From Acetobacterium malicum subsp. dehalogenans DSM 11527 (lineage in GTDB: Bacteria; Bacillota; Clostridia; Eubacteriales; Eubacteriaceae): 62,596 nucleotides of DNA. The stretch is from positions 39,262 through 101,857 of the forward strand of contig NZ_AXAC01000011.1 in the NCBI RefSeq assembly GCF_000472665.1, in the 5' to 3' direction. Position numbers and translations under genes: made by a program. Positions 9,412 to 62,596 of the stretch are shown piece after piece; within the stretch, counting starts at the first letter, position 1; every line of letters begins with the position of its first letter. The notes under the pieces were generated by a model. That model was not told the origin of the DNA and ran no database searches. It saw nothing but the letters and a program-made list of their open reading frames with translations.

Positions 9412-10156
9412 AGAAATGTTCGCCCAGTCGGCGAATTTCAGCTTTGGGTAGGGTGGCATACTGATTGTTGTCGTCTTTGCGGACGAAAAGCACATACTGA
9501 TTGCGGTACAGCACCGTTTTGGAGCGATTGGCCAGGCTGATCAGGGTCGTGTCAGCCAGCGTCTCCTTGCTGGTGAGGTCCAGCACCTGCTCGACTTCGG
9601 GCAGCTTTTTCAGTTCGGCAACTGCGTAGGTCTGGTTGATTGCGGCATTTTTCAGGGCCCCTTTGATTTCGCCATCACAGCCGAATAATCGCAGGCCGAC
9701 GCCGGCCAGGGCGCCGATTATACCCTGCCCGGTACCGCCATGTTCAGACAGGTGGAGCTGGTGATTGTGGGCGCAGGTCAGGGCGTCCGCTTTGGTCAAA
9801 ACTGTCTGTTTGGCCTGGATGCCAAATTCCATCAGCTCATCGTAATGACAGCTTTCATCATAGGCCAGCACGCATAGACCGGGGTCCGAGCCTACTGCGG
9901 CAACGGTATCAAGGTGCTCGGCGGCCAGATCGATGATGGTGGTCAGGGCCTCATCCGGGGCTTCGCCGTGAAAACACATCGAGCTGTTATGTGAGGTATA
10001 GGGGATATCCTCATGAATATAAAGCTGGTGTCGGGTCACGAGTGAACAAGGTCCGTAACCCTGGCGGATGATTTTTTCCCGGATCTGCTCGGCGATGGTT
10101 CCGGTACCGATGGAATCGAGGTTGTCGGTGTCATCAATGCAAAGGTAAAATTTCAT
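9404..10156 (-). CDS. TiaS-like protein (N-terminal part of tRNA-Ile2 agmatidine synthetase family)
   Basis: 250 aa. It starts with the hallmark CIDDTDNLDSIGTGT of TiaS-type proteins, followed by LVTRHQLY and HNSS. Archaeal TiaS is about 420 aa and ends in OB-fold and zinc-ribbon domains; these are missing here, so it matches only the N-terminal half. Bacteria normally use TilS/lysidine for the same tRNA, so a different role is likely. Its position just ahead of the Moco-type riboswitch operon hints at a link to that metal system, but nothing proves it. AAGGAG lies before the ATG. Confidence 0.7.
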   Translation of the reverse strand: MKFYLCIDDTDNLDSIGTGTIAEQIREKIIRQGYGPCSLVTRHQLYIHEDIPYTSHNSSMCFHGEAPDEALTTIIDLAAEHLDTVAAVGSDPGLCVLAYDESCHYDELMEFGIQAKQTVLTKADALTCAHNHQLHLSEHGGTGQGIIGALAGVGLRLFGCDGEIKGALKNAAINQTYAVAELKKLPEVEQVLDLTSKETLADTTLISLANRSKTVLYRNQYVLFVRKDDNNQYATLPKAEIRRLGEHFYV

Positions 10157-10216
10157 ATCTGAAAGCTCCTTGGTTTAATTTACTGAATATAGTCATTATA
10201 AGTGAAGTTATAATAA

Positions 10217-10246
10217 TTGTAAACTGCTGAGGAATGATGTTATAAT
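10217..10246 (+). promoter_or_regulatory. Promoter of the YjdF-like gene
   Basis: TTGTAA (10217-10222), 18-nt spacer, TATAAT (10241-10246), 35 nt before the ATG. Confidence 0.6.
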
Positions 10247-10280
10247 GATAAGATCACTACAAAAATGAAAGAGAATGCCG

Positions 10281-11147
10281 ATGACAAAAACAAAAATAGA
10301 TAGAAAAATGTGGCTGCTTGAGCATCTCAGGGATTTTTGGGAAGAGGCCAGGGAAAATAGAATCAAGGCTTTTGTTTATGTTTCGCTACGGATTTTAGTG
10401 GTGATGGTATTAGTTGCCGAGATTTTCAACCGGAATTATAATAACGTGTTTCTTTGTGTGCTGACCCTGATTCTCTTTATGATTCCAAACTTTCTCAACA
10501 AACGGATGAATATTGTCCTCCCTGGAACTTTGGAAATCATCATACTCTTGTTTATCTTTGGTGCTGAAATCCTCGGGGAAATTAATGAGTATTATCTGAT
10601 TTTTGATCGCTGGGATGACATGCTCCATACTATCAACGGGTTTCTCTGTGCGGCCATCGGTTTCTCAATGATTGACATCCTTAACCGTAATGAAAAAGTG
10701 ACCTTTTCGCTGTCACCGATTTTTGTAGCCCTGGTAGCCTTTTGTTTTTCGATGACAGTGGGAGTGGTATGGGAGTTTTTTGAGTTTGGAATGGATATGT
10801 TTTTTCAAACCGATATGCAGAAGGATTCCATTCAGACGGTGATCAGCTCAGTAATTTTCAATCCCGAGGGCAAAAATGTGGCAGTAGTGATGCCCATCGA
10901 TAGCATGGTAGTCAATGGGGTATCCTGGCATTACGGGGGCTACATCGATATTGGTTTGTACGACACCATGAATGACCTTTTTGTCAATTTTATTGGGGCG
11001 GTGACTTTTTCAATCCTTGGTTATTTTTATATTAAAAACCGCAGTAAAGGGAAATTTGCCAAGCGGTTTATGCCCCGTCGAAAAACCGCAGCGGAGATTT
11101 TAGAAGAACGGGAACACTACGAAAACAAGCACCACCACGATTTGTGA
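10281..11147 (+). CDS. YjdF/DUF2238-like integral membrane protein
   Basis: 288 aa with about six membrane segments. WDDMLHTINGFL and VVWEFFEFGMD are the conserved acidic/histidine stretches of the YjdF/DUF2238 family, whose function is not established. A charged, His-rich tail (HYENKHHHDL) closes the protein. I chose the ATG at 10281 because GAAAGAGA lies about 7 nt ahead; the ATG two codons earlier is too close to it. Confidence 0.75.
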   Translation: MTKTKIDRKMWLLEHLRDFWEEARENRIKAFVYVSLRILVVMVLVAEIFNRNYNNVFLCVLTLILFMIPNFLNKRMNIVLPGTLEIIILLFIFGAEILGEINEYYLIFDRWDDMLHTINGFLCAAIGFSMIDILNRNEKVTFSLSPIFVALVAFCFSMTVGVVWEFFEFGMDMFFQTDMQKDSIQTVISSVIFNPEGKNVAVVMPIDSMVVNGVSWHYGGYIDIGLYDTMNDLFVNFIGAVTFSILGYFYIKNRSKGKFAKRFMPRRKTAAEILEEREHYENKHHHDL

Positions 11148-50873: not shown

Positions 50874-51812
50874 ATGATCCTAAACACCGGCAACCGCACT
50901 GATATACCAGCCTTTTACAGTGAGTGGTTTTACAATCGCATCCGGGCGGGCTTTGTCCTGGTTCGTAATCCCTACTATCCCCAGCAGGTCATTCGCTATC
51001 GGTTATCGCCGGAGGTAGTGGACTGTCTGGCTTTCTGTACTAAAAATCCGGCTCCGATGCTAGACCGATTGTCAGAAATCAGTGCCTTTAAACAGTTCTG
51101 GTTTGTCACTATAACCCCTTATGGTAGAGACATTGAACCCCATGTGCCGGACCAGGCGCAGGTCATCGAGGCCTTCAAGCGGCTGTCCGACGTGGTCGGT
51201 ATTCAAGCGGTGGGCTGGCGTTATGATCCGATTTTCATTTCGGAGAAATATTCGCTGGATTTTCATCGAGACAGTTTTGAGCAGATGGCCATTAGCCTTA
51301 AAGGCTATACCGATCACAGCGTCATCAGCTTTATCGATCTCTATCAAAAGACCCGGCGTAATTTTAAAGGTATCCAGGCAGTCACAACTGCCGAACGTAC
51401 CGAGATCGGCCAAGCCTTTGCCACCATTGCCAGACAAAACGGGATGATGCTGCGCACCTGCTGTGAAGGAGTCGATCTGGCACCCTATGGGGTAGACTGC
51501 TTCGGCTGTATGACCCAGGCTGTTCTGGAGCGAGCCATTGGCACCAGCCTGAAGGTGCCCAAAAACCGCCACACCAGCCGGGAAGGCTGTGACTGTCTGC
51601 TGGGCAGCGATATCGGCGTATATAATAGCTGCGGCCATGGCTGCAGCTACTGCTACGCCAATCATGATGGCCAAACCGTCAAACACAATATGGCCAACCA
51701 CGATCCAAGCTCACCTTTTTTAATAGGCAATACCATGGCTGAGGATATCATTAAGGCCGCTAAACAGGTATCCTATCTAGATGGTCAGCTGTCTCTATTT
51801 GGAAAAATATAA
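50874..51812 (+). CDS. DUF1848 protein (C-terminal Fe-S motif)
   Basis: 312 aa. It opens with TGNRTDIPAFYSEWFYNRIRAG, typical of DUF1848, and a TIM-barrel-like body follows. The cysteine set CCEG, CFGC, CDCL and CGHGCSYCYAN (about residue 253) sits near the C-terminus; CxxxCxxC is the radical-SAM spacing but in an unusual end position. The biochemical role is unknown. AGAAAGGGG precedes the ATG. Confidence 0.8.
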   Translation: MILNTGNRTDIPAFYSEWFYNRIRAGFVLVRNPYYPQQVIRYRLSPEVVDCLAFCTKNPAPMLDRLSEISAFKQFWFVTITPYGRDIEPHVPDQAQVIEAFKRLSDVVGIQAVGWRYDPIFISEKYSLDFHRDSFEQMAISLKGYTDHSVISFIDLYQKTRRNFKGIQAVTTAERTEIGQAFATIARQNGMMLRTCCEGVDLAPYGVDCFGCMTQAVLERAIGTSLKVPKNRHTSREGCDCLLGSDIGVYNSCGHGCSYCYANHDGQTVKHNMANHDPSSPFLIGNTMAEDIIKAAKQVSYLDGQLSLFGKI

Positions 51813-51813
51813 G

Positions 51814-51858
51814 ATACCGTCATCAGTTAGATTTTCGTGACTGATGACGGTTTATTTT
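51814..51858 (+). terminator. Terminator after the DUF1848 gene
   Basis: 12-bp stem ACCGTCATCAGT / ACTGATGACGGT, then a T-rich run. Confidence 0.85.
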
Positions 51859-51894
51859 TGTATAATTCTTTGGGCAGTCACCGTTATCTCCATT

Positions 51895-51962
51895 AGTTAC
51901 CAAAAGGTGCCTATCTAATAAAAAAGTGCCTACTTTTTAATCACATTGAAGTTCAGTATAAT
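51895..51962 (+). promoter_or_regulatory. Conserved 42-bp element and promoter, copy A
   Basis: AGTTAC (51895), 14 nt, CTAATAA (51915), 4 nt, GTGCCTACTTT (51926-51936). A TATAAT box (51957-51962) follows 21 nt after CTACTT. The same layout, base for base in these blocks and in the spacings, occurs at 55241 and 60684. It drives the ABC importer unit. Confidence 0.85.
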
Positions 51963-52024
51963 ATCAATGCAGAAAAGAATCACACCAAAATTCAATTAGT
52001 TTCTGCGGATGAAAGGAAAAGAAA

Positions 52025-52861
52025 ATGAAAAATATTATCGCTGTTTTATTAACAGTCATTATGGCAACACTGCTGGTAACGGGGTGTAGCAGCAGTGACA
52101 AGACGGTTGCGGCAACTCAGCCACTAAAGGTGGCTATGGATTTGAAGTATCCCCCCTTTACCGGGACTGATGAAAAAGGCAATCCCGAAGGATTGGAAGT
52201 GGATATGGCCTATGCTCTGGGCGAATACTTGGGTCGGGACGTGGAAATAGTCAATACTGATTTTCCGATGCTGATCACCGCTTTGGATACTGGTGCGGTC
52301 GATATTGTTATCAGCGAAATGTCGGTAAAAGAAGAGCGTAAAGAAAAGGTTGATTTTTCAAAACCATATATGTATGATCGCACCCTGGCGCTGGTCAATA
52401 AAAGCTTCGCTGAAAAAAACAAGATTACTGATAGCATGTCAGAAAAAGATTTCTTTGCTCTGGATGCCAAATACATTGGTTTGACCGGGACAATCTCCGT
52501 CACCGTGCCCCAATCCTATGGACATCAAGTGGAAGAGATCACCGAAATTGCCAGTGGTTTAATGGAAATTAATAACGGCACGGCTGACGTCCTGGTGGGC
52601 GCCAACAGCATTATTGGTCTTCATGCCACCTATCCAGAGTCGACGGTGATTTACGTCGGCATCAATAACTCCAGCGAAACAGCCATGGCGGTAAAAAAAG
52701 GAAACACCGATCTGCTCGAACAGGTCAACGCTTTTATCAATACCATCTATGCAGATGGCGGTTTCTACCAAACCGCTGGCAGCAAATATGACCAGGCGAT
52801 TGGTGAATACTTGAAAGATCCGTCACTGGGCTTAAATTATATTATTGATCCGCCGCAGTAA
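52025..52861 (+). CDS. Amino-acid-type ABC substrate-binding lipoprotein
   Basis: 278 aa. Lipobox VTGC (Cys17), then a family 3 extracellular binding domain: LKVAMDLKYPPFTGTDEKG, GLEVDMAYAL, GAVDIVISEMSVKEERKE and DFSKPYM. It would deliver a polar amino acid or small peptide-like compound to the permease that follows 9 nt later. The ligand cannot be told. The unit is under the 42-bp element. Confidence 0.88.
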   Translation: MKNIIAVLLTVIMATLLVTGCSSSDKTVAATQPLKVAMDLKYPPFTGTDEKGNPEGLEVDMAYALGEYLGRDVEIVNTDFPMLITALDTGAVDIVISEMSVKEERKEKVDFSKPYMYDRTLALVNKSFAEKNKITDSMSEKDFFALDAKYIGLTGTISVTVPQSYGHQVEEITEIASGLMEINNGTADVLVGANSIIGLHATYPESTVIYVGINNSSETAMAVKKGNTDLLEQVNAFINTIYADGGFYQTAGSKYDQAIGEYLKDPSLGLNYIIDPPQ

Positions 52862-52870
52862 AGGGATCCG

Positions 52871-53608
52871 ATGAAACGCTGGAGTCAAAACATGCAAACA
52901 ATCCTGGCGGTGGCCCTGTTTGCCGGGATCATCGGCTACATCTTTACCAACACCATCGACGACCCTAAATATTATCTGATTCTCAATGAAAAAAGTCTGT
53001 TGCTGGAAGGGATCTGGACGACGCTGTACGTTAGCGTCGTCACCCTGGTTTTAAGTATGATTTTTGGTTTTATCCTGTTTTTAATGATGGATAGCCGGAT
53101 TGCGTTTATCAAAGCGGTGGCCATGCTTTTTAAAGAAATCATGATGGGCACGCCACTGTTGGTGATGGTTTTCCTAACCGTCTACGTTTTTGGACCGATG
53201 ATCCAGCTACAGGACAAGGTGTTATTGGGAATCCTGGCGCTGACCTTATATACCAGTCCTTATCTGGCCAATTCCTACCGGACGGCAGTGGAAGTGGTTG
53301 ACGAAGATCAGTATACGGTCATGAATCTGTACAATTTTTCTGCCTATCAGAAATACCGTTATGTCATCTTACCACAGATGATCAAGCCGATGATCCCATC
53401 ATTCATCAACGGGCTATCGAGCACCATCAAAGGGTCTGCCCTGCTGAAGGTGGTATCAGTCACCGAAATCTCCTACATCATCACCCTTATTTCTCAAAAA
53501 AACTGGGCTTCCATTGAAGGGTATCTGGTCATGTGGGTGGCCTATCTGTTGATCACCATCCCCTTATCGCTGCTGGCCCAAAAGATCGGAAAGGAGATGA
53601 GCCATTGA
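52871..53608 (+). CDS. Amino-acid-type ABC permease
   Basis: 245 aa, about five membrane helices. LLEGIWTTLYVSVVTLVLS start, GTPLLVMVFLTVY, and the coupling region EVVDEDQYTVMNLYNFSAYQ followed by the YRYVILPQ end are typical of His/Glu-type permeases. It appears as a single permease, so probably a homodimer. Confidence 0.88.
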   Translation: MKRWSQNMQTILAVALFAGIIGYIFTNTIDDPKYYLILNEKSLLLEGIWTTLYVSVVTLVLSMIFGFILFLMMDSRIAFIKAVAMLFKEIMMGTPLLVMVFLTVYVFGPMIQLQDKVLLGILALTLYTSPYLANSYRTAVEVVDEDQYTVMNLYNFSAYQKYRYVILPQMIKPMIPSFINGLSSTIKGSALLKVVSVTEISYIITLISQKNWASIEGYLVMWVAYLLITIPLSLLAQKIGKEMSH

Positions 53609-54339
53609 AACTGCAACTGGAAAAGCTGATCAAAAATTATGATAAAACGATCTTGAATGATTTAAATTTAACCATCGATAATGTCCAGGCGGTGGGGATT
53701 ATCGGGGCTTCCGGGTGTGGCAAATCGACGCTGCTGCGGTTGCTGGCGGGGATGGAATTTCCTGAGACCGGCAAAATCCGGATCAATGAGGTGCCAATTA
53801 ATCTAAAAACGGTAAAATCCTACCAGGAAAATATCGGCTATGTTTTTCAGAAACATAATTTATTTCCCCATCTGACGATTCGGGAAAATCTGCTGCTGAT
53901 TCTCGAGAAAGTCAAGAAGATGGATAAAAATCAGTCCGAAAAACGAATTGATGGGCTCCTGACACAATTTCAGCTTAACGATCAGGCTGATCAAAAGCCC
54001 AATGTCGTATCCGGGGGGCAGGCTCAGCGGGCGTCCATCGCCCGGGCTTTGTCCAACAATCCCTCATTGATCCTATTGGATGAACCGACAGCGGCACTGG
54101 ATCCGATTTTGACCGGGGAAGTGCTTAGTTCCATCCATAACTTAAAAAACCTCGGCAAGGACTTTATCTTTGTCACTCATGAGATTTCATTTCTGCGAAA
54201 TTTTGCCGACTATGTCATTTTTATGGATGAGGGCCAGATCATCGAGCATGGGGATATTACCCACATTGACAACCCGATAACGGAAAAACTGAAACAGTTT
54301 CTGGCATTTGAAACAAAAAATCAATTTATTGGAGAATGA
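53605..54339 (+). CDS. Amino-acid-type ABC ATPase
   Basis: 244 aa. Walker A GASGCGKST, Q-loop VFQKHNLFPHLT, signature VSGGQAQRASIARAL, Walker B LILLDEPTAALD and switch VTHE. I place the start at TTG 53605, which overlaps the permease stop and has AAGGAGATG 6 nt ahead; longer frames run inside the permease gene. Confidence 0.9.
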   Translation: MKLQLEKLIKNYDKTILNDLNLTIDNVQAVGIIGASGCGKSTLLRLLAGMEFPETGKIRINEVPINLKTVKSYQENIGYVFQKHNLFPHLTIRENLLLILEKVKKMDKNQSEKRIDGLLTQFQLNDQADQKPNVVSGGQAQRASIARALSNNPSLILLDEPTAALDPILTGEVLSSIHNLKNLGKDFIFVTHEISFLRNFADYVIFMDEGQIIEHGDITHIDNPITEKLKQFLAFETKNQFIGE

Positions 54340-54341
54340 AT

Positions 54342-55028
54342 ATGGATATTAAAGAAATTTATGAGAAATTTGATCAGATCGGCTGCCTAACTTTTGCAAC
54401 TATCGATGATGGTTATCCGGAAACCCGGATTGCCCATCTGTTTGCCTATGATGAAGAGGGCCTTTATTTTCGAACCATGACGGTTAAACCGTTTTATCGG
54501 CAAATTACCGAAACCGGCAAAATGTCCATTTGCGGGATGTCAGCTTCGCCTAATGTGGTTCATGCAGAAGCAACCGGTTTACCGATTTTCGAACCGGGTT
54601 TTACGATGAAAGCCACCGGTGATGTCCGGGAGATTTCCTTTGAAGAGCTGTTGAAAAAAGAAAATAAAAGTCAGGGCTTTGCCATGGGGATTAAAGATAT
54701 CCGACGTTATCGGGATTTGCGGGCCTTTGTGATGGATCGCTTCCGCGGTGAGTATTATGATTACGATTTTGATCTGGCCACCCGGGATCATAAGATCATC
54801 CGGGAGAGTTTCAGCTTCAATGATTTTCCGACAAAATTTCGCGGGATGAAGATTAATGAAAAATGCATCGGTTGTAACCAGTGCAAGGAACAATGTGATG
54901 TCAAGTTGTTTAAAGCCATCGAAATTGACGAAAACGGTGGCTATTTCATTAATAACAATCACTGTGATGTCTGTGGCGATTGTACCCTGGTCTGTCCGGT
55001 GGGTGCCATTGACAGTTATAGGGAGTGA
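54342..55028 (+). CDS. Pyridoxamine-phosphate-oxidase-like flavoprotein with ferredoxin domain
   Basis: 228 aa. Residues 1-150 have a split-barrel FMN-binding fold (LTFATIDDGYPETRIAHLF, MTVKPFYRQI). The C-terminus has two 4Fe-4S clusters (CIGCNQCKEQC and CDVCGDCTLVC). A flavin joined to ferredoxin clusters suggests electron transfer to or from ferredoxin. It is last in the ABC importer unit (ATG nearly overlaps the ATPase stop; GGAG 7 nt ahead), so it may reduce what is imported. Role inferred. The gap to 55240 has no gene. Confidence 0.85.
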   Translation: MDIKEIYEKFDQIGCLTFATIDDGYPETRIAHLFAYDEEGLYFRTMTVKPFYRQITETGKMSICGMSASPNVVHAEATGLPIFEPGFTMKATGDVREISFEELLKKENKSQGFAMGIKDIRRYRDLRAFVMDRFRGEYYDYDFDLATRDHKIIRESFSFNDFPTKFRGMKINEKCIGCNQCKEQCDVKLFKAIEIDENGGYFINNNHCDVCGDCTLVCPVGAIDSYRE

Positions 55029-55240
55029 GTGGATCGGGAAGCCTATGTGGTGATAGGGTCAGCTGTTGCCGAGTGCTTTAAAATTGTAATTGGATCTATG
55101 ATTTACCTAATTATTATTGATTGTTCTTTAGTTATGTGATAACAAATCATTAACATTTTGGCTAGCCTGATAATTTTTATAACGGGAGTGCTCATATTTT
55201 AATATGGATCTGATTTTATCTGAACAGTCGAAATTTCATT

Positions 55241-55308
55241 AGTTACTTTTTTGTTACCAACTAATAAATTAGTGCCTACTTTCTTTATCAAAGGAAATGA
55301 TTTATAGT
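55241..55308 (+). promoter_or_regulatory. Conserved 42-bp element and promoter, copy B
   Basis: AGTTAC (55241), CTAATAA (55261), GTGCCTACTTT (55272-55282) with the same 14- and 4-nt gaps as copies A and C. TATAGT (55303-55308) lies 21 nt after CTACTT. It drives the Cys-repeat peptide unit. Confidence 0.85.
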
Positions 55309-55360
55309 GTAAGTGTAACAACAATTCATATCAAATTTAAATTTTTTAGGAGGAACACAA

Positions 55361-55576
55361 ATGGGATTATTTAAGAAAAGATTGAGCGCTCAGGCTTATA
55401 TGAAAGCGCCAGAAATGAGTGCAGCAGGAAGTGCCTGCGGATCAGCCTGTGGGGCCGGGGACAAGGAAAAAGAAGAAAAACCAAGCGCCTGCAGTTCAGC
55501 TTGTGGCGCCGGTGACAAAGAACCAGAAACAAAACCAATAGCCTGCGGATCGGCCTGCGGCGCTGGCGACAAATAG
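55361..55576 (+). CDS. Cys-repeat (ACGX-type) precursor peptide, putative RiPP
   Basis: 71 aa. A basic N-terminal leader-like part (MGLFKKRLSAQAYMKAPEMS) is followed by two 18-residue repeats (25-42 and 43-60) and a half repeat (61-71). Each has two AC-X-X units followed by GAGDK: ACGSACGAGDK twice and ACSSACGAGDK once. Six cysteines (26, 30, 44, 48, 62, 66) form CxxxC pairs. It has a strong AGGAGG and is followed by a radical SAM/SPASM gene, so it is the likely substrate. It matches, from memory, the predicted ACGX-repeat peptide families; no product is known to me. Confidence 0.8.
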   Translation: MGLFKKRLSAQAYMKAPEMSAAGSACGSACGAGDKEKEEKPSACSSACGAGDKEPETKPIACGSACGAGDK

Positions 55577-55619
55577 AAAACTCCCAAATCTCGAATTTAA
55601 CAATCAATTCAGGAGCATG

Positions 55620-55657
55620 AGCTGGCATATTAAAAGGTATGTCAGCTTATTTTTTAA
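55620..55657 (+). terminator. Terminator/attenuator between precursor and radical SAM genes
   Basis: 10-bp stem AGCTGGCATA / TATGTCAGCT (one G-U pair) followed by TATTTTTT. Partial read-through would give much precursor and little enzyme. The 55658-55781 stretch that follows has GC-rich palindromic pieces and no ORF start with a good site. Confidence 0.65.
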
Positions 55658-55781
55658 AAGTGCAGCAAGCGACTTTGACGAGAAAGCTTGCTTTCGCAGG
55701 CAAAGACATTTGCTTCACAATCAGTCGAGCGTAGAGAAGCGAGCGAGTTCTGATTTAAATCTACAAAAAAAGGAAAAAACC

Positions 55782-56804
55782 ATGGAATATTTTGCCTATC
55801 AGTTTCACATCACCGATCACTGCGATCAGCGCTGTGAGCATTGTTATATTTTTTCAGAAGATCATCAGAAGTGTCTTGACGAAATGATTATCGAGAATAT
55901 TGAAAAAGTCATCGCTAACTGCGTCGCCATGTGCAAGCAGTTGAACCGGCGGCCTTATTTCTATATTACCGGTGGCGACCCGCTGCTCCACCCGGATTTC
56001 TGGCAGCTGGCCGCAAGCTTAAAAAATCGCAACATCCCCTTTGGTATTCTGGGAAACCCTTTCCATTTAAATGATCAAATCTGTCAACGGTTGGCCGAGC
56101 ATGGCTGCCGGAAATACCAGCTGTCGATTGACGGCCTGCGTGAAACCCATGATGCCATCCGGAAGCCCGGATCCTTTGACACCACCATCGAAAAAATTGA
56201 CTGTATCCGAAAGGCCGGCATCGATTGTGCGGTCATGACCACGGTCTCCGGCACCAATAAGCATGAAATTGAAGCGATTGTCGATCTGGTCGTCGCCAAT
56301 CAAGTGGACATCTTTGCCTTTGCCCGCTATTGTCCCACCGGATTTGAAAAGGAAAACCATATCGATCCGCTGGAATACAAAGCTCTGCTTAGTCGGCTCT
56401 GGAAAAAATTTGAAGACTATCAGGACGCTGAGATCACCTTTAACCTGAAAGATCATTTATGGAATCTGTTTCTCTATGAAAAAGGACTGTTTGAGATCCC
56501 GGAGGGGTTGGATGCGCAGGTGATGGTCGATGGCTGTAATTGCGGCAATTGCCATATGACCATTTTGCCCACTGGCGATGTTTATGCCTGTCGTAGAATG
56601 GAAAGTCAAATCGGCAATGCTTTGAGTGATAGTATGCATGATCTGTTTGTTGGAAAAGGGATGGATGCCTATCGTCAGTATGATCAATTTGAGAAATGTG
56701 CAAAATGTGAATTGCTGCGGTTCTGTCGGGGTTGCCCGGCGGTGGCTTACGGTTATACCAAGAATATGTATGCCGCCGATCCCCAGTGCTGGAAGGAAGT
56801 CTGA
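55782..56804 (+). CDS. Radical SAM/SPASM peptide maturase (ACGX system)
   Basis: 340 aa. The radical SAM motif is CDQRCEHC near residue 14, followed by GGDPLLHPDFW and a TIM-barrel. The C-terminal SPASM region has CNCGNC, CRRM and CAKCELLRFCRGCPA, giving the cysteines for auxiliary 4Fe-4S clusters. Such enzymes install thioether or other carbon-linked bonds in ribosomal peptides. The ATG at 55782 has AAGGA 8 nt ahead; an in-frame upstream stretch from 55617 covers the attenuator and is non-coding in look. The natural partner is the Cys-repeat peptide. Confidence 0.88.
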   Translation: MEYFAYQFHITDHCDQRCEHCYIFSEDHQKCLDEMIIENIEKVIANCVAMCKQLNRRPYFYITGGDPLLHPDFWQLAASLKNRNIPFGILGNPFHLNDQICQRLAEHGCRKYQLSIDGLRETHDAIRKPGSFDTTIEKIDCIRKAGIDCAVMTTVSGTNKHEIEAIVDLVVANQVDIFAFARYCPTGFEKENHIDPLEYKALLSRLWKKFEDYQDAEITFNLKDHLWNLFLYEKGLFEIPEGLDAQVMVDGCNCGNCHMTILPTGDVYACRRMESQIGNALSDSMHDLFVGKGMDAYRQYDQFEKCAKCELLRFCRGCPAVAYGYTKNMYAADPQCWKEV

Positions 56805-56806
56805 GT

Positions 56807-57799
56807 ATGAAAAAGATGAAAGCCGTATTATTAAATGGCACCGGAGGCCCGGCTGTATTACAACTTAGCCAGGTCGATGTGCCAGTTGTCAAACCCGGTT
56901 GGGTTCTGGTCAAAATAAGAGCCTTTGGTTTAAATCGGGCGGAGCTGACGCTGCGCCAATACGAAGCCGATTCTTCATATATTCAGCTACCGATTATCCC
57001 GGGAATTGAATGCGTGGGCGAAATTGTTGATCCTTCAGATAGTCAGTTTGCGGTTAATGACCGCGTGGTGGCTTTAATGGGCGGGATGGGTCGGAGTTTT
57101 GACGGCAGCTATGCCGAATATGCGCTGCTCCCGGTGACCCATGTGTTTTTAGCAAAGACAAATTTGGAATGGACAAAACTTGCAGCCATTCCGGAAACGT
57201 TTTTTACCGCCCATGGCTCCTTGTTTGAGTGCCTGCAGCTTGGTCAAAATGACCGCTTACTAATCCACGGCGCAACCAGTGCGCTGGGGCTGGCAGCTAT
57301 CCAGCTGGCCAAAACGACTGGATGCACGGTTATCGGAACTTCCCGAAAAAAAGAACGGCTGGACTTTCTTAAAGAAGTCGGCGCAGATTTTGCGGTGCTG
57401 GATGATGAAATGCTGTCCAAACGAATCCGCGATGTTTTTCCTGATGGCGTAACAAAGGTGCTGGAACTGGTCGGGGTCAGGGCCATCCCCGAGACTACAA
57501 AACTACTAAAAAAACATGGTATCATTTGTTCAACTGGACAGCTTGGCGGTAATCCCACCAGTAGCTTTGATCTGATCAAAAGCATTCCCAATGGCATTTA
57601 TTTAAGCTCTTTTTACAGCAATTATCCCACCCAAGAAGTGATCGATGATATTTTTAAACGGATCGAAGAATATCAGCTCGCCACTATTATCGGTGCCGTT
57701 TTTACACTGGATGAGATCGCAGCGGCTCATGAAATGATGGAGAATAATCAAGCCCAGGGCAAGATCGTCATCAGAACTACAGCGGATCAGGTTGATTAA
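56807..57799 (+). CDS. MDR-family NAD(P)H-dependent oxidoreductase (quinone reductase-like)
   Basis: 330 aa. GroES-like N-terminal half (AVLLNGTGGPAVLQL, GLNRAELTLRQ, PGIECVGEI), then a Rossmann half with HGATSALGLAAIQLAK. It lacks the zinc-binding cysteines of alcohol dehydrogenases, which fits quinone oxidoreductase/enoyl reductase types. It starts 2 nt after the radical SAM stop, so it is translated in the same unit and may act on the peptide or on the same electrophile stress. Confidence 0.85.
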   Translation: MKKMKAVLLNGTGGPAVLQLSQVDVPVVKPGWVLVKIRAFGLNRAELTLRQYEADSSYIQLPIIPGIECVGEIVDPSDSQFAVNDRVVALMGGMGRSFDGSYAEYALLPVTHVFLAKTNLEWTKLAAIPETFFTAHGSLFECLQLGQNDRLLIHGATSALGLAAIQLAKTTGCTVIGTSRKKERLDFLKEVGADFAVLDDEMLSKRIRDVFPDGVTKVLELVGVRAIPETTKLLKKHGIICSTGQLGGNPTSSFDLIKSIPNGIYLSSFYSNYPTQEVIDDIFKRIEEYQLATIIGAVFTLDEIAAAHEMMENNQAQGKIVIRTTADQVD

Positions 57800-59091
57800 A
57801 TGAAACGAAAATGCCAAATCGCCGGGTTGATGATTATGACAGCTTTAGTGAGTGGAGGATGCGCCACCACCTTCAATGATGTTTCCAAGAACTTAAAACC
57901 AAACAACAGCCCCGCAAGCATTATGGCCATTTCGGATCCCCATTATTATTCGCCAACGCTCACAGATTACGGCGCCAAATTTACAGAAATAATAAATAAT
58001 AGTGATGGAAAAGATGTCAAGAACAGTCCTCAGATCATAGCGGCCTTTGTCAAAGAAGTGGAGATCAAACAGCCGGATGCCGTGGTAATCAGCGGAGATC
58101 TGACCTTAAATGGGGAACAAGCCAGCCATGTCGAAATGGCAGAGTATTTAAAGCAGATTGAAGCGGCGGGCATACCGGTGCTGGTAATTCCCGGCAATCA
58201 CGATATCAATAGTACTCAAGCTTATGCCATTTCCGATACTGAGATCAAAAAGACGGCTTCAATCAGCCCCCAAAGCTTTGCCCAAATTTATGGTTCTTTT
58301 GGTTATGACAAAGCAATTTCCCGGGATGGCAGTTCCTTAAGTTATCTGGCTGCCCTGACCAATGATATCTGGCTGCCCTGACCAATGATATCTGGCTCAT
58401 AATGATCGATGCCAGCCAGTACAACAGCACCACCTCTGATCTGGGCAGGGTCAAGGACGGTACACTGAGTTGGATTGAAGATTGCCTGAAAGAAGCCCAG
58501 AGCAGAAGTATAACGGTGCTCAGTGTTACCCACCAGAATCTGCTGCCCCATAACCCGGCTTTTTCAGAACTCTATACCATCGAAAATGGTCAGGAACTGA
58601 CAGCATTATATGAAAAATACCAGGTCAATCTGAATTTAAGTGGCCATATGCATATCCAGAATATTGCCAGTAACGATAGCGACGTCAATAACAATTTAGA
58701 TGACAATACTCTTTACGATTGCGCTACTGGATCCCTGGCGGTTTGGCCCAATCTCTATGCCCTGGTGGAGCTGGATAGTACCAAAAAAGTCAGCTATACC
58801 ACCAACTCGGTGGATTATGGCAGCGATTCACATCAGTTTTTTTATGACAACAGTTATAAAAAGTTTTATGATGTGTTGGGAACGCTTTACCTACCGGACG
58901 AAACCAAGAAGGGGATGGCTGTTTATGCCACCATGCTGAATCTCGATTATTTCAGCGACCAGCTTGATGCCGTGAAAATAGAAAAATACAAACAGGATCT
59001 GAACTACAAATTATGGCAGCAAAAAATGCCCGCCAGTTTCGAAACCATGTATATTGAAAGTATGCTGAAAGAAGAACCGAAAAAATGCTGA
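57800..59091 (+). pseudogene. Metallophosphatase lipoprotein gene split by a 23-bp tandem duplication
   Basis: The ATG abuts the previous stop. First part: lipoprotein signal with SGGC, then calcineurin-like motifs SDPHYYSP, VISGDLT and IPGNHDIN. At 58347-58392 a 23-bp unit is repeated exactly; the second unit shifts the frame and causes a stop at 58381. Removing one unit joins NDIW to LIMIDASQ and the frame runs through VTHQNL and SGHMHIQ to 59091, a complete 422-aa enzyme. As it stands, the metal site is split between two fragments (an ATG at 58402 could restart the second). Confidence 0.85.
58347..58392. repeat. Exact 23-bp tandem duplication
   Basis: 58347-58369 and 58370-58392 are identical. 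They lie inside the metallophosphatase gene and cause its frameshift. Either a recent slip (perhaps reversible) or an assembly error. Confidence 0.95.
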
Positions 59092-59093
59092 AA

Positions 59094-59134
59094 TAACAAA
59101 CGACTAAATATCACTACTTAGTCGTTTGTTTTGT
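59094..59134 (+). terminator. Terminator of the Cys-repeat peptide unit
   Basis: 13-bp stem AACAAACGACTAA / TTAGTCGTTTGTT, then TTG-rich; it can also serve the convergent FMN reductase gene. Confidence 0.8.
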
Positions 59135-59154
59135 GAATCTAATTTTAATTTTTG

Positions 59155-59712
59155 TTAATTCTGTATTGTTTTTAACGAATTACTCGAGGCGATTACCTGA
59201 TCAAAGACATCGTTAAGTGTGCCCTCGTGGCGTGGGTCGGGAGTAAAGGTACTCATATTTTCGAAATCAGTAAAAAGCGATAGCATTACTTGGGCTCGAA
59301 CATCATTAATATGAAGTTCTGCGGCAACAAGTCTGAGATGTTCAACTGCGCGAGATCCACCGGCACTGCCGTAACTGACAAATCCGGCAGCCTTATTTTT
59401 CCATTCAATATTCAAATAATCAATGGCATTTTTTAGCGCACCGGGAATACTGTGATTATACTCGGCCGTTACAAATATATAGGCATCAAATTCCTTGATT
59501 TTATTTGACCATACTTTGGTATGATCTTTGGTATACTGTTGCATCATTGCCGGAAACGGCTCGTCGTAAAGTGGCAAATCATAATCCGCCACATCAACTA
59601 ACTCAAATGTAGCATCATCACGTTTCTGTGCCAGTTCATAAACCCATTTTGCAACAGCTTCGCCATTTCGTCCCGGTCGGGTGCTTCCTAATATAATACC
59701 GATTTTTGTCAT
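59155..59712 (-). CDS. NADPH-dependent FMN reductase/azoreductase-like
   Basis: 185 aa flavodoxin-like fold. IGIILGSTRPGRNGEAVAKW binds FMN phosphate; VTAEYNHSIPGALKNAIDYL and VSYGSAGGSRAVEHLR are family signatures. It reduces flavin, quinones or azo compounds with NAD(P)H. AGGAGG precedes the ATG. Genes of this kind are frequent targets of HxlR regulators, one of which is encoded at 60166. Confidence 0.88.
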   Translation of the reverse strand: MTKIGIILGSTRPGRNGEAVAKWVYELAQKRDDATFELVDVADYDLPLYDEPFPAMMQQYTKDHTKVWSNKIKEFDAYIFVTAEYNHSIPGALKNAIDYLNIEWKNKAAGFVSYGSAGGSRAVEHLRLVAAELHINDVRAQVMLSLFTDFENMSTFTPDPRHEGTLNDVFDQVIASSNSLKTIQN

Positions 59713-59928
59713 CTTAATCCTCCTAGAATTTTTATAAATATTATTAAATGTATTTAATAATATTTTACCCGTAAATTTTGTTATAAAACAAATAAAATAA
59801 AAAATGATTATAAATGTGTTTAAAAAGAATACTGGCGGCCGCCGATATTCGCTACTTTTTTCTTTATAGCCGCGGGTTCATTTGTGGTGCAACGCAAGAT
59901 GCTTAATAATGTGAAGTATAACAACAAA

Positions 59929-59975
59929 TGACCGATAAGTCAATAACCAATTGGTCAACAATGACTTATCGGTCA
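59929..59975. repeat. 14-bp perfect inverted repeat
   Basis: TGACCGATAAGTCA (59929-59942) and TGACTTATCGGTCA (59962-59975). It lies in the 450-bp gap upstream of the FMN reductase gene, which shows no other gene. It may be a weak terminator or a binding site. Confidence 0.6.
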
Positions 59976-60104
59976 CTTTTAAATGAAGGTGGAAAATTGT
60001 TAAATTGTTTATTAAAGAAACTGGTGTGATCAGCGCAGTGTTTGAATTGTTCGAGACGTGATTAGAGCGCAAAAATATAGCCATAAAACAAAAATAAATA
60101 ACAC

Positions 60105-60152
60105 AAAAAGCGAAGTAACCGGACACCTGCTATGTCCAGTTACTTCGCTTTT
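60105..60152 (-). terminator. Terminator after the HxlR gene
   Basis: Long stem: AAAAGCGAAGTAAC and its complement GTTACTTCGCTTTT with a GGACA/TGTCC inner part and one mismatch. T-rich exit on the minus strand. Confidence 0.75.
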
Positions 60153-60165
60153 GGAAAAAGAATGA

Positions 60166-60504
60166 TTAATTAGTACTTGAAGAAACATACTCCTTGTAAC
60201 TGTTGCCCCAGTCTTCCATGGATTTAAAGAGCGGACGCAGGGAGTTGCCCAGATCGCTTAGGGAATATTCCACCCGGGGCGGAACTTCCGGATAAACGGT
60301 TCGTACAATCAGTCCGTCGGCTTCAAGAGCCCGTAGGTTGTCCGTCAGGACTTTCTGGCTGATCCCTGGGACGCCGTTTCTCAGCTCGCCAAAACGATAT
60401 TCCCTAACAAGTAAATTTCTAATAATCAGCAGTTTCCATTTATTTCCGATCAATTCCACCATGGTGGCAACCGGACAGGCCGGTAACTCTTCTTTTGTTA
60501 ACAT
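60166..60504 (-). CDS. HxlR-family transcriptional regulator
   Basis: 112 aa. CPVATMVELIGNKWKLLIIRNL with the conserved Cys (residue 9) near the start, then FGELRNGVPGISQKVLT and YPEVPPRVEYSLSDLG. HxlR/YodB-type proteins sense aldehydes, quinones or disulfide stress through this cysteine. It sits among the three transcription units that share the 42-bp element and is the only regulator in that stretch, so it is a candidate to bind that element; its own upstream region does not have it. Confidence 0.9.
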   Translation of the reverse strand: MLTKEELPACPVATMVELIGNKWKLLIIRNLLVREYRFGELRNGVPGISQKVLTDNLRALEADGLIVRTVYPEVPPRVEYSLSDLGNSLRPLFKSMEDWGNSYKEYVSSSTN

Positions 60505-60683
60505 TATAACCCTCCAAATTTAAAATACGTTAGTATAAAAACGATTGTTATATTCGAATTATAGTGTAATATGCTGAAAGGGTCAACACAAATCGGTGTT
60601 TATAAATAGTTGCTGCTTTAATATTTTAATATAGAGGTTCAAAAACGATCAAACCGTAAATCGAGGTTATCCGTATGTCCGAT

Positions 60684-60751
60684 AGTTACAAATAGGCAAC
60701 TATCTAATAAAAAGGTGCCTACTTTTCAAAGCGGTACAGCTGAATTAAAAT
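60684..60751 (+). promoter_or_regulatory. Conserved 42-bp element and promoter, copy C
   Basis: AGTTAC (60684), CTAATAA (60704), GTGCCTACTTT (60715-60725) with the same gaps as copies A and B. TAAAAT (60746-60751) is 21 nt after CTACTT. The message has a leader of about 170 nt before the lipoprotein ATG, in which I see no gene. Confidence 0.8.
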
Positions 60752-60932
60752 GAATTGACAAGCTTTACAAACCTGAAAGAATTTACAAGAGGGTAAATTG
60801 AATAAAGAGAAGGGAGATCAAAAAAGTATGAATGCTTGTTAAATAAGCTATTACGGAAAAAATCGACAGATATGATCTGAGTATTTTTTCTAAAAGTCAC
60901 GTTAATTTTTGAATAAAGAAAGGGAAAAGAAA

Positions 60933-61853
60933 ATGAAAAAAACGATTGTATTGACACTGATTGTATCATTTTTAATGCTGACAGTTGCTGGTTGTGGGAG
61001 CAATGCCGCAAACAGCACTGACAAGAGCTCTTCAACAACCACGGAGGAGACAAAAAAAGAAGCTACGGTTATAGAAGTGCCACTAAAAATTGGCAAGGTT
61101 CAGGTTTATGATTTCGGCGATGTCAAGTTACACGCTTATGCTACTAATGATGCCTTAAATGATGAATGTTATATTGTCGAAAATAAGGACAATCTGGTGG
61201 GAATTGAAATTCCGGCTTTTACTGACAATTTAAATGAATGGAAAGACTACATAAAAAGTCTGAACAAACCGATGAATGATATTCTGATTGACAATCATAA
61301 TACCGGCGGAGATTATCTTACTGGGATGAACGTTTATGCCACCGAAAACGCCAAAGCTGCCATTGAGGGCGGTGCGACTCTGGCTACCATGCAAGGGCTT
61401 GCACAGTCTATTGGTACAGCCTTTGACAGCAATGTGGCCAAAATAACTAAGATTTTATCTGCTGGTTCCCAAACCATTGCTGGAACTGAGTTTATGATCA
61501 CCGACAACGGCGATACCTATACCATTGAAATCCCAGAGATGAACGCCGTCTATACTCACATGTTGGGTGAAAAAGTCCATTCAATCCTGGTCAGCAATGA
61601 GATGATGGATGCTACCATCGCAACCCTGAACGAGTATCAGTCCAAGGGTTATGATTTAATTCTCTCCAGTCATGCTGCTCCTGAAACCCAGGCAGCTGTG
61701 GTAGCCAAGATTGCCTACATTGAAAAAGCTAAAGAACTGGCCAAAAGTTCAGCTGATGCTAAAATATTTACAGAAGCCATGTCCAAGGCCTTCCCGGATT
61801 ATGCCGGAGCAAATTATCTGGACATGACCGCCGGATTCTTATATCAAAAATAA
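60933..61853 (+). CDS. Lipoprotein with a degenerate MBL-like fold
   Basis: 306 aa. Signal with lipobox VAGC (Cys20), a Ser/Thr/Lys linker, then a domain whose strand order recalls metallo-beta-lactamase proteins (CYIVENKDNLVGIEIPAF, ILIDNHNTGGDYL, SSHAAPE). The HxHxDH metal motif is absent, so it may bind rather than cleave. It is alone behind copy C of the 42-bp element. AAAGGGAAAA precedes the ATG; a TTG at 60909 is less likely. Confidence 0.7.
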   Translation: MKKTIVLTLIVSFLMLTVAGCGSNAANSTDKSSSTTTEETKKEATVIEVPLKIGKVQVYDFGDVKLHAYATNDALNDECYIVENKDNLVGIEIPAFTDNLNEWKDYIKSLNKPMNDILIDNHNTGGDYLTGMNVYATENAKAAIEGGATLATMQGLAQSIGTAFDSNVAKITKILSAGSQTIAGTEFMITDNGDTYTIEIPEMNAVYTHMLGEKVHSILVSNEMMDATIATLNEYQSKGYDLILSSHAAPETQAAVVAKIAYIEKAKELAKSSADAKIFTEAMSKAFPDYAGANYLDMTAGFLYQK

Positions 61854-61906
61854 ATAATCAGTTGAACTAGATACTTGGGATCAGTCTGACTGAAAGATAC
61901 ATTTAT

Positions 61907-61953
61907 GAATACCATCCCGTCTTTCGTTTAACGTAAGTTGGGATGGTATTCTT
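61907..61953 (+). terminator. Terminator after the lipoprotein gene
   Basis: 12-bp perfect stem GAATACCATCCC / GGGATGGTATTC, loop 21 nt, short T-rich exit. Confidence 0.7.
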
Positions 61954-62019
61954 CATTAATATAAAAGTGACTGTCCAAAAAGGGTAGAAATGCAATGAAA
62001 TCATCACCTGTTTGAATCA

Positions 62020-62049
62020 TTGTTAAAGGATTACACTTAGGAATATAAT
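62020..62049 (+). promoter_or_regulatory. Promoter of the hydrogenase unit
   Basis: TTGTTA (62020-62025), an 18-nt spacer, TATAAT (62044-62049), 66 nt before the leader ORF. Confidence 0.6.
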
Positions 62050-62115
62050 CAAATCATAGGTTTCAAAAAATGGTTGCCTATTTCGAAGATTGCAATTATT
62101 TGAGGAGGTACTTGT

Positions 62116-62190
62116 ATGTATTGTTTATCTACCCAGCCTTGCATTATGCCTGTAAGGCCTTTTTCACTGAAAGGAGTTATCCCGAAATGA
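62116..62190 (+). CDS. 24-aa leader ORF overlapping the hydC start
   Basis: ATG with a strong GAGGAGG 8 nt ahead; reads MYCLSTQPCIMPVRPFSLKG then VIPK and stops at a TGA that overlaps the hydC ATG (ATGA). The hydC AAGGAG site lies inside this ORF, so its translation may control hydC. Possibly a leader peptide rather than a functional protein; its existence as a gene is inferred from the sites alone. Confidence 0.5.
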   Translation: MYCLSTQPCIMPVRPFSLKGVIPK

Positions 62191-62596
62191 GTCAAGAAAC
62201 ACACGAACATCACCACCATCATGAACCCGGTTGCGGCTGCGGTTGTCACGGTGATCAGCCAAATCCCTTTGAGGAACTAAACCCGGTACTAGATCGCTAT
62301 GCCGACATCCCCGGAAGTTTGATCACGATCCTTCAGAAAGCCCAGGAGCTTTACGGTTTTTTATCTGTTGAGCTGATGCGCCATATTGCCCTGGAAACCC
62401 ACACCAGCATTGCCAAGGTTTACGGGGTGGCCACCTTCTATACCCAATTCCGCTTTGAACCGGTGGGGAAATACCTGATCATGCTCTGTCAGGGCACCGC
62501 CTGTCACGTCAACGGCTCCAAACAGGTCGAAGAAGCCGTGATGGACTACCTCGACATCAAAGAAGGCGAAACCACCTCCGACGGACTGTTCACCCT
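62187..62596 (+). CDS. hydC: HydC/NuoE-type [2Fe-2S] subunit of the bifurcating hydrogenase, partial
   Basis: 136 codons up to the window edge. NuoE-like: LVELMRHIA-type helices (here SVELMRHIALETH), KVYGVATFYTQF, and the first half of the 2Fe-2S site CQGTACHVNGS; the second CxxxC lies beyond the edge. The N-terminus is unusual, a His/Cys-rich HEHHHHHEPGCGCGCHGD stretch (residues 6-23). In Acetobacterium hydC begins the hydrogenase operon that couples hydrogen with NAD and ferredoxin; a NuoE of formate dehydrogenase-type complexes cannot be excluded. Confidence 0.8.
   Translation, partial: MSQETHEHHHHHEPGCGCGCHGDQPNPFEELNPVLDRYADIPGSLITILQKAQELYGFLSVELMRHIALETHTSIAKVYGVATFYTQFRFEPVGKYLIMLCQGTACHVNGSKQVEEAVMDYLDIKEGETTSDGLFT

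Follow-up and report, generated by a model that had tools for sequence, protein, structure and literature searches.

A candidate tandem operator of a one-cysteine HxlR/DUF24 regulator before importer, ACGX peptide and lipoprotein genes in Acetobacterium malicum subsp. dehalogenans

Genes and features of the locus

The DNA analysed here, hereafter the window, is a stretch of 62,596 nucleotides from Acetobacterium malicum subsp. dehalogenans DSM 11527. Its right-hand part holds three transcription units that share an upstream element, together with a gene for an HxlR-type regulator on the opposite strand. The E-values given below for the element refer to R1, a sequence-only profile built from 25 sites at ACGX loci of other genomes and the three window sites.

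51895..51936, plus strand: site 1, putative tandem operator before the ABC importer and PNPOx-ferredoxin unit (pattern match; R1 E 9.7e-13)
51934..51962, plus strand: site 1 promoter, putative weak -35 TTTTTA, 17 bp, -10 TATAAT (51957-51962)
52025..52861, plus strand: substrate-binding lipoprotein of an amino-acid-type ABC importer (SBP_bac_3; profile matches)
52871..53608, plus strand: ABC permease (profile matches)
53605..54339, plus strand: ABC ATPase (profile matches), with a likely TTG start at 53605; the listed ORF runs from 53533
54336..55028, plus strand: protein with a PNPOx-like flavin domain and a 4Fe-4S ferredoxin domain; PNPOx_N is below the Pfam cut-off
55241..55282, plus strand: site 2, putative tandem operator before the ACGX unit (pattern match; R1 E 2.4e-8)
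55280..55308, plus strand: site 2 promoter, putative weak -35 TTTCTT, 17 bp, -10 TATAGT (55303-55308)
55361..55576, plus strand: ACGX-repeat peptide (TIGR04341, 48.5 bits against a cut-off of 28)
55617..55650, plus strand: terminator-like hairpin between the peptide and radical-SAM genes
55782..56804, plus strand: radical SAM/SPASM protein of the ACGX system (TIGR04340, 584 bits against a cut-off of 400)
56808..57799, plus strand: quinone-oxidoreductase-like zinc-type dehydrogenase (profile matches)
57800..59091, plus strand: metallophosphatase-type lipoprotein gene, as two ORFs in different frames (57800-58381 and 58402-59091; Pfam scan of the first ORF)
60166..60504, minus strand: HxlR/DUF24 regulator with a single cysteine, Cys10 (PF01638, 111.5 bits)
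60558..60586, minus strand: strong promoter-like site upstream of hxlR (TTGACC, 17, TATAAT; 11/12)
60684..60725, plus strand: site 3, putative tandem operator divergent from hxlR and before the MBL lipoprotein (pattern match; R1 E 3.2e-12)
60723..60751, plus strand: site 3 promoter, -35 TTTTCA, 17 bp, -10 TAAAAT
60933..61853, plus strand: lipoprotein with a predicted metallo-beta-lactamase (MBL) fold (structure model)

The peptide and its maturase both score above their curated cut-offs and so belong to the ACGX system. The match of the radical SAM/SPASM protein to TIGR04340 begins near the ATG at 55782, and the listed ORF starts at 55617. The gene at 59155-59712, which we take to encode a flavin reductase, is without an NCBIfam match. 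The structure model of the protein encoded at 60933-61853 (mean pLDDT 82.8; best Foldseek match 8d2z_A, E 9.6e-11, TM 0.59) predicts a metallo-beta-lactamase fold, and the sequence has no Pfam match at E 0.001. The zinc motif of this fold is HxHxDH. The corresponding region here reads DNHNTGGDY, and HxHxDH is found in none of the four rows of alignment A3.

The element and its promoters

The shared element is a 42-bp block, AGTTAC-N14-CTAATAA-N4-GTGCCTACTTT, whose gaps of 14 and 4 nt are identical at all three sites; here the original prediction is exact on re-reading of the coordinates. It had also placed a -10 box at one fixed distance from each block, which is borne out: TATAAT (51957), TATAGT (55303) and TAAAAT (60746) each begin on the 21st nucleotide past the block. 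The putative -35 hexamers at sites 1 and 2 and the -35 hexamer at site 3 precede them by 17-bp spacers. The element had been said to end near -38. This needs a small amendment: the block overlaps the edge of the -35, whose hexamer begins with the block's final TTT, which puts the end of the operator proper near -36.

The element contains two imperfect 18-bp dyads with centres 19 bp apart, one of the AGTTAC-N6-GTAACT type followed by one of the WSTAAT/CGCAC-N6-GTGCS type. The downstream dyad abuts the weak -35 hexamer at the window sites. Over the 22 rows without indels, complementarity in the upstream dyad (column 13.5) is 0.705 versus 0.265 for shuffled columns, with 1 of 2000 shuffles as high. 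In the same rows the downstream dyad (column 32.5) reaches 0.477, with 84 of 2000 shuffles as high, which lends weak support to its being a real part of the element. At independent sites, a hexamer with at least four of the six letters of TATAAT stands at exactly the window's -10 offset in 20 of 26 cases; the next best offset has 12 of 26.

The genome-wide motif scan proposed with the original prediction was run on this genome and 100 others. Whether no mismatch or as many as 3 are allowed, the pattern has exactly three matches in the 4,050,072 bases (76 contigs) of the own genome, and the reversed-pattern control has none there. Across the 101 genomes, own included, one additional match is found, in congener G005, 78 nt 5' of its ACGX peptide ORF; the control likewise has one, in G093. 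A dispersed repeat, an outcome that had been named in advance as refuting the prediction, is excluded by the absence of own-genome matches beyond the three within 3 mismatches.

Co-occurrence of the element and HxlR

The core motif GTGC[CG]TACTT lies upstream of the peptide, once and in the right orientation, in all 25 kept ACGX loci of other genomes; simple arithmetic puts its chance occurrence in one 3-kb locus at about 1 in 90. This set excludes additional matches to a peptide gene already counted (L010, L032-L036, L044-L049), own-genome entries (L008, L011) and L043 (G795), a sub-cut-off match in a 472-aa frame with no radical-SAM or HxlR neighbours; L009 (G064), also below the cut-off, was retained since both neighbours are present. 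An HxlR gene is nearby in 23 of the 25, one of them (L007) being a fragment. L040 and L041 have none, wider stretches of 15 + 6 and 9 kb included. Genome G664 does have, on a different contig, an HxlR gene accompanied by a site (L110).

Among 80 named loci with an ACGX radical-SAM gene, 27 have an R1 match at E <= 4e-4, two of which hold a row of the R1 model letter for letter. The element is found in 23 of the 24 loci with an HxlR of at least 57% identity to the window protein, in none of the 37 whose best match is below 57%, and in 4 of the 19 whose stretch lacks an HxlR; the 57% cut was chosen after the fact and runs along taxonomic lines, most distant loci being Bacteroidota or Methanobacteria by record title. 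L217 is the locus with a close HxlR and no R1 match. Of the 37 distant loci, in some of which the HxlR match does not adjoin the peptide, L235 (E 0.013) and L210 (E 0.055) have sub-threshold matches on the opposite strand. Eleven of the 19 loci without HxlR have less than 650 bases upstream.

The reverse test starts from the regulator. In 26 fetched HxlR loci of at least 52% identity, own included, an R1 site lies divergently upstream, within about 210 bp, in 17 (5 of which contributed to R1 and several of which are weak, down to 10.8 bits). One further locus has an R1 site upstream in the same operon, and eight are without an adjacent R1 match. Weak sites also occur in relatives beside HxlRs of 34-47% identity (L085, L089, L092-L095, L103, L108, L109). 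Comparison of these genomes shows the element and the HxlR gene travelling together in Bacillota, and this co-occurrence supports the earlier claim of a shared regulatory element tied to an HxlR protein.

The regulator

The window HxlR has an HxlR-type winged helix, scoring well above the PF01638 gathering score of 20.8. Its Cys10 is aligned in 22 of 23 ACGX-linked and 59 of 61 HxlR matches, and 21 of the 23 ACGX-linked matches have one Cys in the aligned part. This conserved N-terminal cysteine is presumably redox-active. The closest solved chain is 7kd3 (E 1.2e-27); 4a5m/4a5n, labelled YybR, another name of HypR, are also among the closest (E 4.6e-25). HypR has a second cysteine for an intersubunit disulfide. 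The window protein lacks a second cysteine of this kind, since its sequence holds one Cys only. The best NCBIfam match is RrpB (NF047364), at 123 bits below the curated cut-off of 175, so the protein is not placed in that family.

B. subtilis HxlR, the formaldehyde-sensing activator of hxlAB, belongs to the same Pfam family but has different target genes. It binds two sites upstream of its promoter. Residue +2 past the Cys is Val in the window protein and Val, Ala, Ile or Met in every match aligned there, with Lys at that position in none of the 22 + 60 HxlR matches. The Cys11-Lys13 formaldehyde bridge of B. subtilis HxlR therefore cannot form as such here, and a formaldehyde-type HxlR with Cys-X-Lys on helix 1 was rejected. 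As described in the parts of PMC7835342 consulted, B. subtilis HxlR activates through a conserved N-terminal Cys. Nitroreductase and flavin-enzyme targets also occur in the HypR (YybR) and YodB regulons (passages of PMC6943732), but operator and regulon differ.

Genes behind the element

Sites elsewhere precede macrodomain/SirTM, MBL-lipoprotein, PNPOx-ferredoxin and nitroreductase genes. The MBL lipoprotein stands behind the element in L115, L097 and L192, and the ACGX unit in all 25 kept loci; the importer lies downstream of the element and SirTM in L119, and a binding-protein gene likewise in L087 and L088. Each window gene type is thus found behind the element in other loci, in keeping with the earlier claim that the element joins three units. 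In Sporomusa silvacetica the MBL lipoprotein and ACGX are each preceded by one site, and HxlR adjoins. L091 departs from the usual order, with its sirtuin and macrodomain genes upstream of the site.

An HxlR or a regulon-type gene lies within the fetched stretch at 30 of 34 further sites, a part of the R1 matches (17 in selected stretches, 17 in 3-kb loci). By tblastn the other four, L116, L096, L099 and L117, have neither. A flavodoxin-ferredoxin-like ORF follows the site in L116, L096 has by eye an alcohol-dehydrogenase-like ORF, and L099 and L117 look like promoter relics.

In the own genome, the three window sites (36-50 bits with R1) are followed by a half-sized fourth copy on contig C5 (right half; E 0.0023) and then by E 0.24; weaker sites may be missed because 150 of 1348 first-look candidates were scored. 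The C5 copy heads an operon of adjacent sirtuin and macrodomain ORFs (L104). The sirtuin has no Pfam match and scores 23.5 bits, below the cut-off, with the NCBIfam deacylase model; it is related to the SirTM structures 5a3a-c and 8rsn (phmmer to 5a3a_A, E 1.4e-53). The macrodomain matches NF003163 at 335.9 bits against a cut-off of 272, and the two are predicted to act as a SirTM/Zn-macrodomain pair. A congener, G003, encodes an HxlR that is 94% identical, and the promoter next to this gene matches the own C5 promoter over 78 consecutive bases. The proposed regulon keeps its three promoters but is probably wider than these, the C5 operon being a probable further member.

Regulatory model and alternatives

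We consider the element very likely to be a tandem operator of the one-cysteine HxlR/DUF24 regulator, most likely an activator, of a thiol/electrophile-stress regulon. From the element, its spacing, its conservation, its linkage to HxlR and the genes behind it, all read in the DNA, we infer that HxlR binds the element and what kind of inducer it meets. Two dimers of the protein would bind next to each other on one DNA face, immediately 5' of RNA polymerase. Modification of Cys10 by a thiol-reactive signal, be it an electrophile, quinone, disulfide or aldehyde, would alter DNA affinity, and the modified regulator, most likely as an activator, would turn on the importer/PNPOx-ferredoxin, ACGX and MBL lipoprotein units, as well as the sirtuin-macrodomain operon on the other contig. 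A point against the model is that sites 1 and 2 are about 8.6 and 5.2 kb from hxlR. Activation is the probable sign of control, and the geometry argues for it: the -35 hexamers are poor at the three sites, versus the 11/12 promoter upstream of hxlR.

The same operator and regulator could instead work by repression, HxlR sitting over the -35 edge until freed by thiol modification, like YodB. We hold this to be a credible but clearly less likely arrangement. The operator abuts the -35 at the window sites, operators touching the -35 can also serve repressors, and thiol modification inactivates several repressors of the DUF24 family (PMC6943732, in part). However, the two dyads are stacked upstream and not over -10/+1, the -35 hexamers in the window are poor, and the B. 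subtilis HxlR is an activator (PMC7835342, in part). The -35 argument is weakened because this hexamer is better in several other loci (TTTACA, e.g. L114).

The genome encodes five HxlR-domain proteins, and a paralogue such as that on contig C4, which has a similar weak site beside it, could be the main regulator of the three promoters. This is improbable, since the HxlRs that accompany strong sites are most closely related to the local protein (59-72% identity; 94% in G003), whereas the C4 protein is 45% identical to it and has a site of 13.6 bits versus 36-50 in the window. Some cross-binding by paralogues is possible because of that weak related site. Three near-identical blocks within 9 kb might also suggest a mobile or dispersed repeat, or an RNA element, near promoters by accident. 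This is extremely unlikely: the own genome has no further copies, a single distance to the -10 is preferred across genera, HxlR or regulon-type genes accompany most further sites, and 51000-62596 has no Rfam match at gathering score.

Relation to known systems and significance

The element recurs in many bacteria next to an HxlR-type gene, and the genes that it seems to govern look like a redox-stress set, with a modified cysteine-rich peptide and enzymes of protein ADP-ribosylation among them. The regulator family is already known; the regulon is described in none of the papers listed by our literature searches. Nor is the ACGX peptide system, for which the regulation is the new part. SirTM/Zn-macrodomain systems are tied to oxidative stress (PMC4518038 and PMC11490716, in part), and the part of PMC11490716 consulted states that the targets and role of the minimal SirTM-macrodomain pairs are unknown. 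The main texts of both mention neither 'HxlR' nor 'radical SAM'. The known extended operons include GcvH-L and LplA2, whereas the putative HxlR operator here precedes pairs that are accompanied by ACGX, nitroreductase, Fe-S-like or importer genes.

A bolder and rather doubtful idea is that the radical-SAM-matured ACGX peptide and the SirTM/Zn-macrodomain pair form one redox-signalling module, with the one-Cys HxlR acting on the tandem operator to switch all of it. SirTM ADP-ribosylation would then have the modified cysteine peptide, or a partner, as its carrier or target where GcvH-L is not encoded alongside. Both the ACGX peptide and the minimal SirTM-macrodomain pairs are orphan systems, to which the findings give a likely regulator, operator and stress setting, and the operator can serve as a search tool for additional regulon members. 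Thiol stress is predicted to co-induce the importer, ACGX, MBL and sirtuin-macrodomain units.

Genomic distribution of the element

The original prediction described a 42-bp element repeated three times with fixed internal gaps and at a fixed distance from a -10 box, and the blocks, their gaps and their -10 distances were all confirmed on the window sequence. The three copies and the genes beside them are:

51895-51936, + strand: site 1, upstream of an amino-acid-type ABC importer and a flavin/ferredoxin-type protein
55241-55282, + strand: site 2, upstream of an ACGX-repeat peptide (TIGR04341) and a radical-SAM/SPASM enzyme (TIGR04340), in a unit that also holds a quinone-oxidoreductase-like enzyme and a metallophosphatase-type gene
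60684-60725, + strand: site 3, between the divergent HxlR gene and a lipoprotein

A dispersed repeat was looked for by a genome-wide motif scan: with 0 to 3 mismatches the pattern matched three times in the 4.05-Mb genome, and a reversed control pattern matched 0 times. The three 42-bp blocks are thus unique within their own genome. A sequence-only profile (R1), built partly from these three sites, gave E values of 9.7e-13 (site 1), 3.2e-12 (site 3) and 2.4e-8 (site 2). With 150 of 1348 candidates scored, its next match in the genome (E 0.0023) was a copy of the right half, located on contig C5; beyond it, scores dropped to E 0.24.

The window HxlR protein is a PF01638 member with one cysteine. 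The site 3 lipoprotein is predicted to adopt a metallo-beta-lactamase (MBL) fold. Such folds usually carry a zinc motif, and the usual motif was not found in the lipoprotein sequence. A terminator-like hairpin at 55617-55650, between the ACGX peptide and radical-SAM genes, suggests that the peptide transcript is more abundant than the enzyme transcript. The metallophosphatase-type gene is broken at a 23-bp head-to-tail duplication (58343-58397), either real or an assembly slip, and reads as two ORFs (57800-58381 and 58402-59091) whose frames differ.

The proposed operator at ACGX and radical-SAM loci

ACGX peptides are rare in the sampled groups: counting the own genome each time, they matched in 6 of 101 relatives, in 16 of 391 genomes at class level and in 9 of 398 at phylum level. 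Leaving out own-genome entries, second matches within one gene and the sub-cut-off L043, 25 loci remained. All 25 carry a single GTGC[CG]TACTT per stretch, correctly oriented and 5' of the peptide, and most have a TATAAT-like hexamer 20-21 nt past ACTT. An HxlR match lies within the stretch in 23/25, the one at L007 being a fragment; none was found at L040 and L041, wider stretches included. In the congener G005 (L013), the operator upstream of ACGX is present, and the HxlR match is limited to the C-terminal part (9474-9752), which overlaps the 5' end of the MBL lipoprotein gene (9601-10536). The radical-SAM gene of the system was not found by tblastn in this 20-kb stretch. Another motif, AATGTTACA, lies upstream of HxlR and near its start in 13/25 ACGX loci (e.g., L004, L018, L023), inside GAATGTTACATTC-like palindromes, and is possibly an autoregulatory site.

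Named genomes were scanned for the ACGX radical-SAM enzyme, and of 566 loci the best 80 were retained. Among these 80, R1 matched in 27 loci (28 sites, E <= 4e-4), two of which hold an R1 model row letter for letter; all 28 sites are upstream and on the same strand. R1 sites were present in 23 of 24 loci with an HxlR of at least 57% identity, in 0 of 37 below 57%, and in 4 of 19 stretches without HxlR, 11 of which have <650 bases of upstream DNA. The presence of a site therefore splits sharply by HxlR identity at a cut chosen post hoc, and the group below it is, by record title, largely Bacteroidota and Methanobacteria, where promoters differ, with part of its HxlR matches not adjoining the peptide. 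Two loci of that group (L235, L210) have sub-threshold matches on the opposite strand. The enzyme also occurs in Bacteroidota and Methanobrevibacter records (L189-L268), where the stretch often includes an HxlR match and, 3' of the enzyme gene, a quinone-oxidoreductase-like or nitroreductase gene.

The reverse test began from the window HxlR protein against 101 relatives, own included, and took 30 loci from a longer match list. Among the matches listed, 17 of 26 HxlR loci of at least 52% identity have a divergent R1 site within about 210 bp upstream (five of them, L129 and L131-L134, also went into R1), and L135 has one upstream in the same operon as HxlR; the weakest matches scored 10.8 bits. 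At eight of the 26 (L137, L141, L142, L145, L146, L147, L153, L158) no adjacent match was found at E up to 1. By eye, most of these eight show a GTGC...CTT variant at the same place, excluded from the count. Among the four listed loci below 52% identity, a same-strand site some 780 bp upstream is present at two, and the other two have no R1 site. Within the own genome, a weak site adjoins the HxlR locus on contig C4, and no adjacent site was found at the other three of the four non-window HxlR loci.

Content of the proposed regulon

An HxlR gene or a regulon-type gene lies in the fetched stretch at 30 of 34 further sites. The site is directly 5' of macrodomain and sirtuin genes (L113, L114, L098), MBL lipoprotein genes (L115, L097), a PNPOx-ferredoxin gene (L120; further downstream in L101, L118) or a nitroreductase gene followed by HxlR (L112). 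L119 has the order site, SirTM, binding protein, permease, ATPase and PNPOx-ferredoxin, its importer and PNPOx-ferredoxin genes being 50-64% identical to those of the window; in L087 and L088 the stretches reach no further than SirTM and binding protein. Sporomusa silvacetica has HxlR, a site 5' of an MBL lipoprotein and a site 5' of ACGX, which is followed by a dehydrogenase, sirtuin and macrodomain.

The half-site on contig C5 heads an operon that encodes two Fe-S-like proteins (Fer4_16 below cut-off), a SirTM-type sirtuin and a macrodomain. The congener G003 has, next to a 94%-identical HxlR, a promoter that is identical to the C5 promoter over a run of 78 bases. We infer that this HxlR was paired with that promoter before the present arrangement arose, and that further copies stand at the ACGX, MBL and importer units. 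Two sites are possible operator-promoter relics: one in G012 (L117, 5290-5331) resembles site 2 and has neither importer nor ACGX genes beside it, and one in G008 (L099, 1501-1533) nearly copies the C5 promoter and lacks the operon.

Anatomy and proposed mechanism

In the 22 of 28 aligned sites without indels, the two dyads are spaced 19 bp centre to centre (columns 13.5 and 32.5). The upstream dyad has a complementarity of 0.705, against about 0.27 for shuffled columns (1/2000 as high), and the downstream one 0.477 against the same background. As 84/2000 shuffles reach the latter value, the downstream feature is weakly supported as a dyad; conservation is highest in its right half, which was also the anchor of the alignment. 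At the window's offset, 20 of 26 independent sites match the -10 at four or more of six positions (next best offset, 12).

The -35 begins right after GTGCCTAC. It is poor at the window's sites and can be better at other loci (TTTACA in L114); the promoter upstream of hxlR reaches 11/12. Two regulator dimers would sit side by side on the dyads, against a weak -35, and this arrangement fits HxlR acting as an activator, although it may act as a repressor. The conserved lone Cys and the record of the HxlR family suggest a thiol-reactive signal as the inducer. A formaldehyde bridge of the type found in B. subtilis HxlR, which needs a Lys, is ruled out since the window protein lacks that Lys.

Significance

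The HxlR family, the ACGX maturase system and the ADP-ribosylation pair each belong to a known kind. No regulon that joins the three turned up in the literature listings covered; the terms 'HxlR' and 'radical SAM' are absent from the main text of two papers on SirTM systems (PMC4518038, PMC11490716). The latter states that neither the physiological role nor the targets beyond the extended operon are known. The proposed regulon brings two orphan systems within reach of testing.
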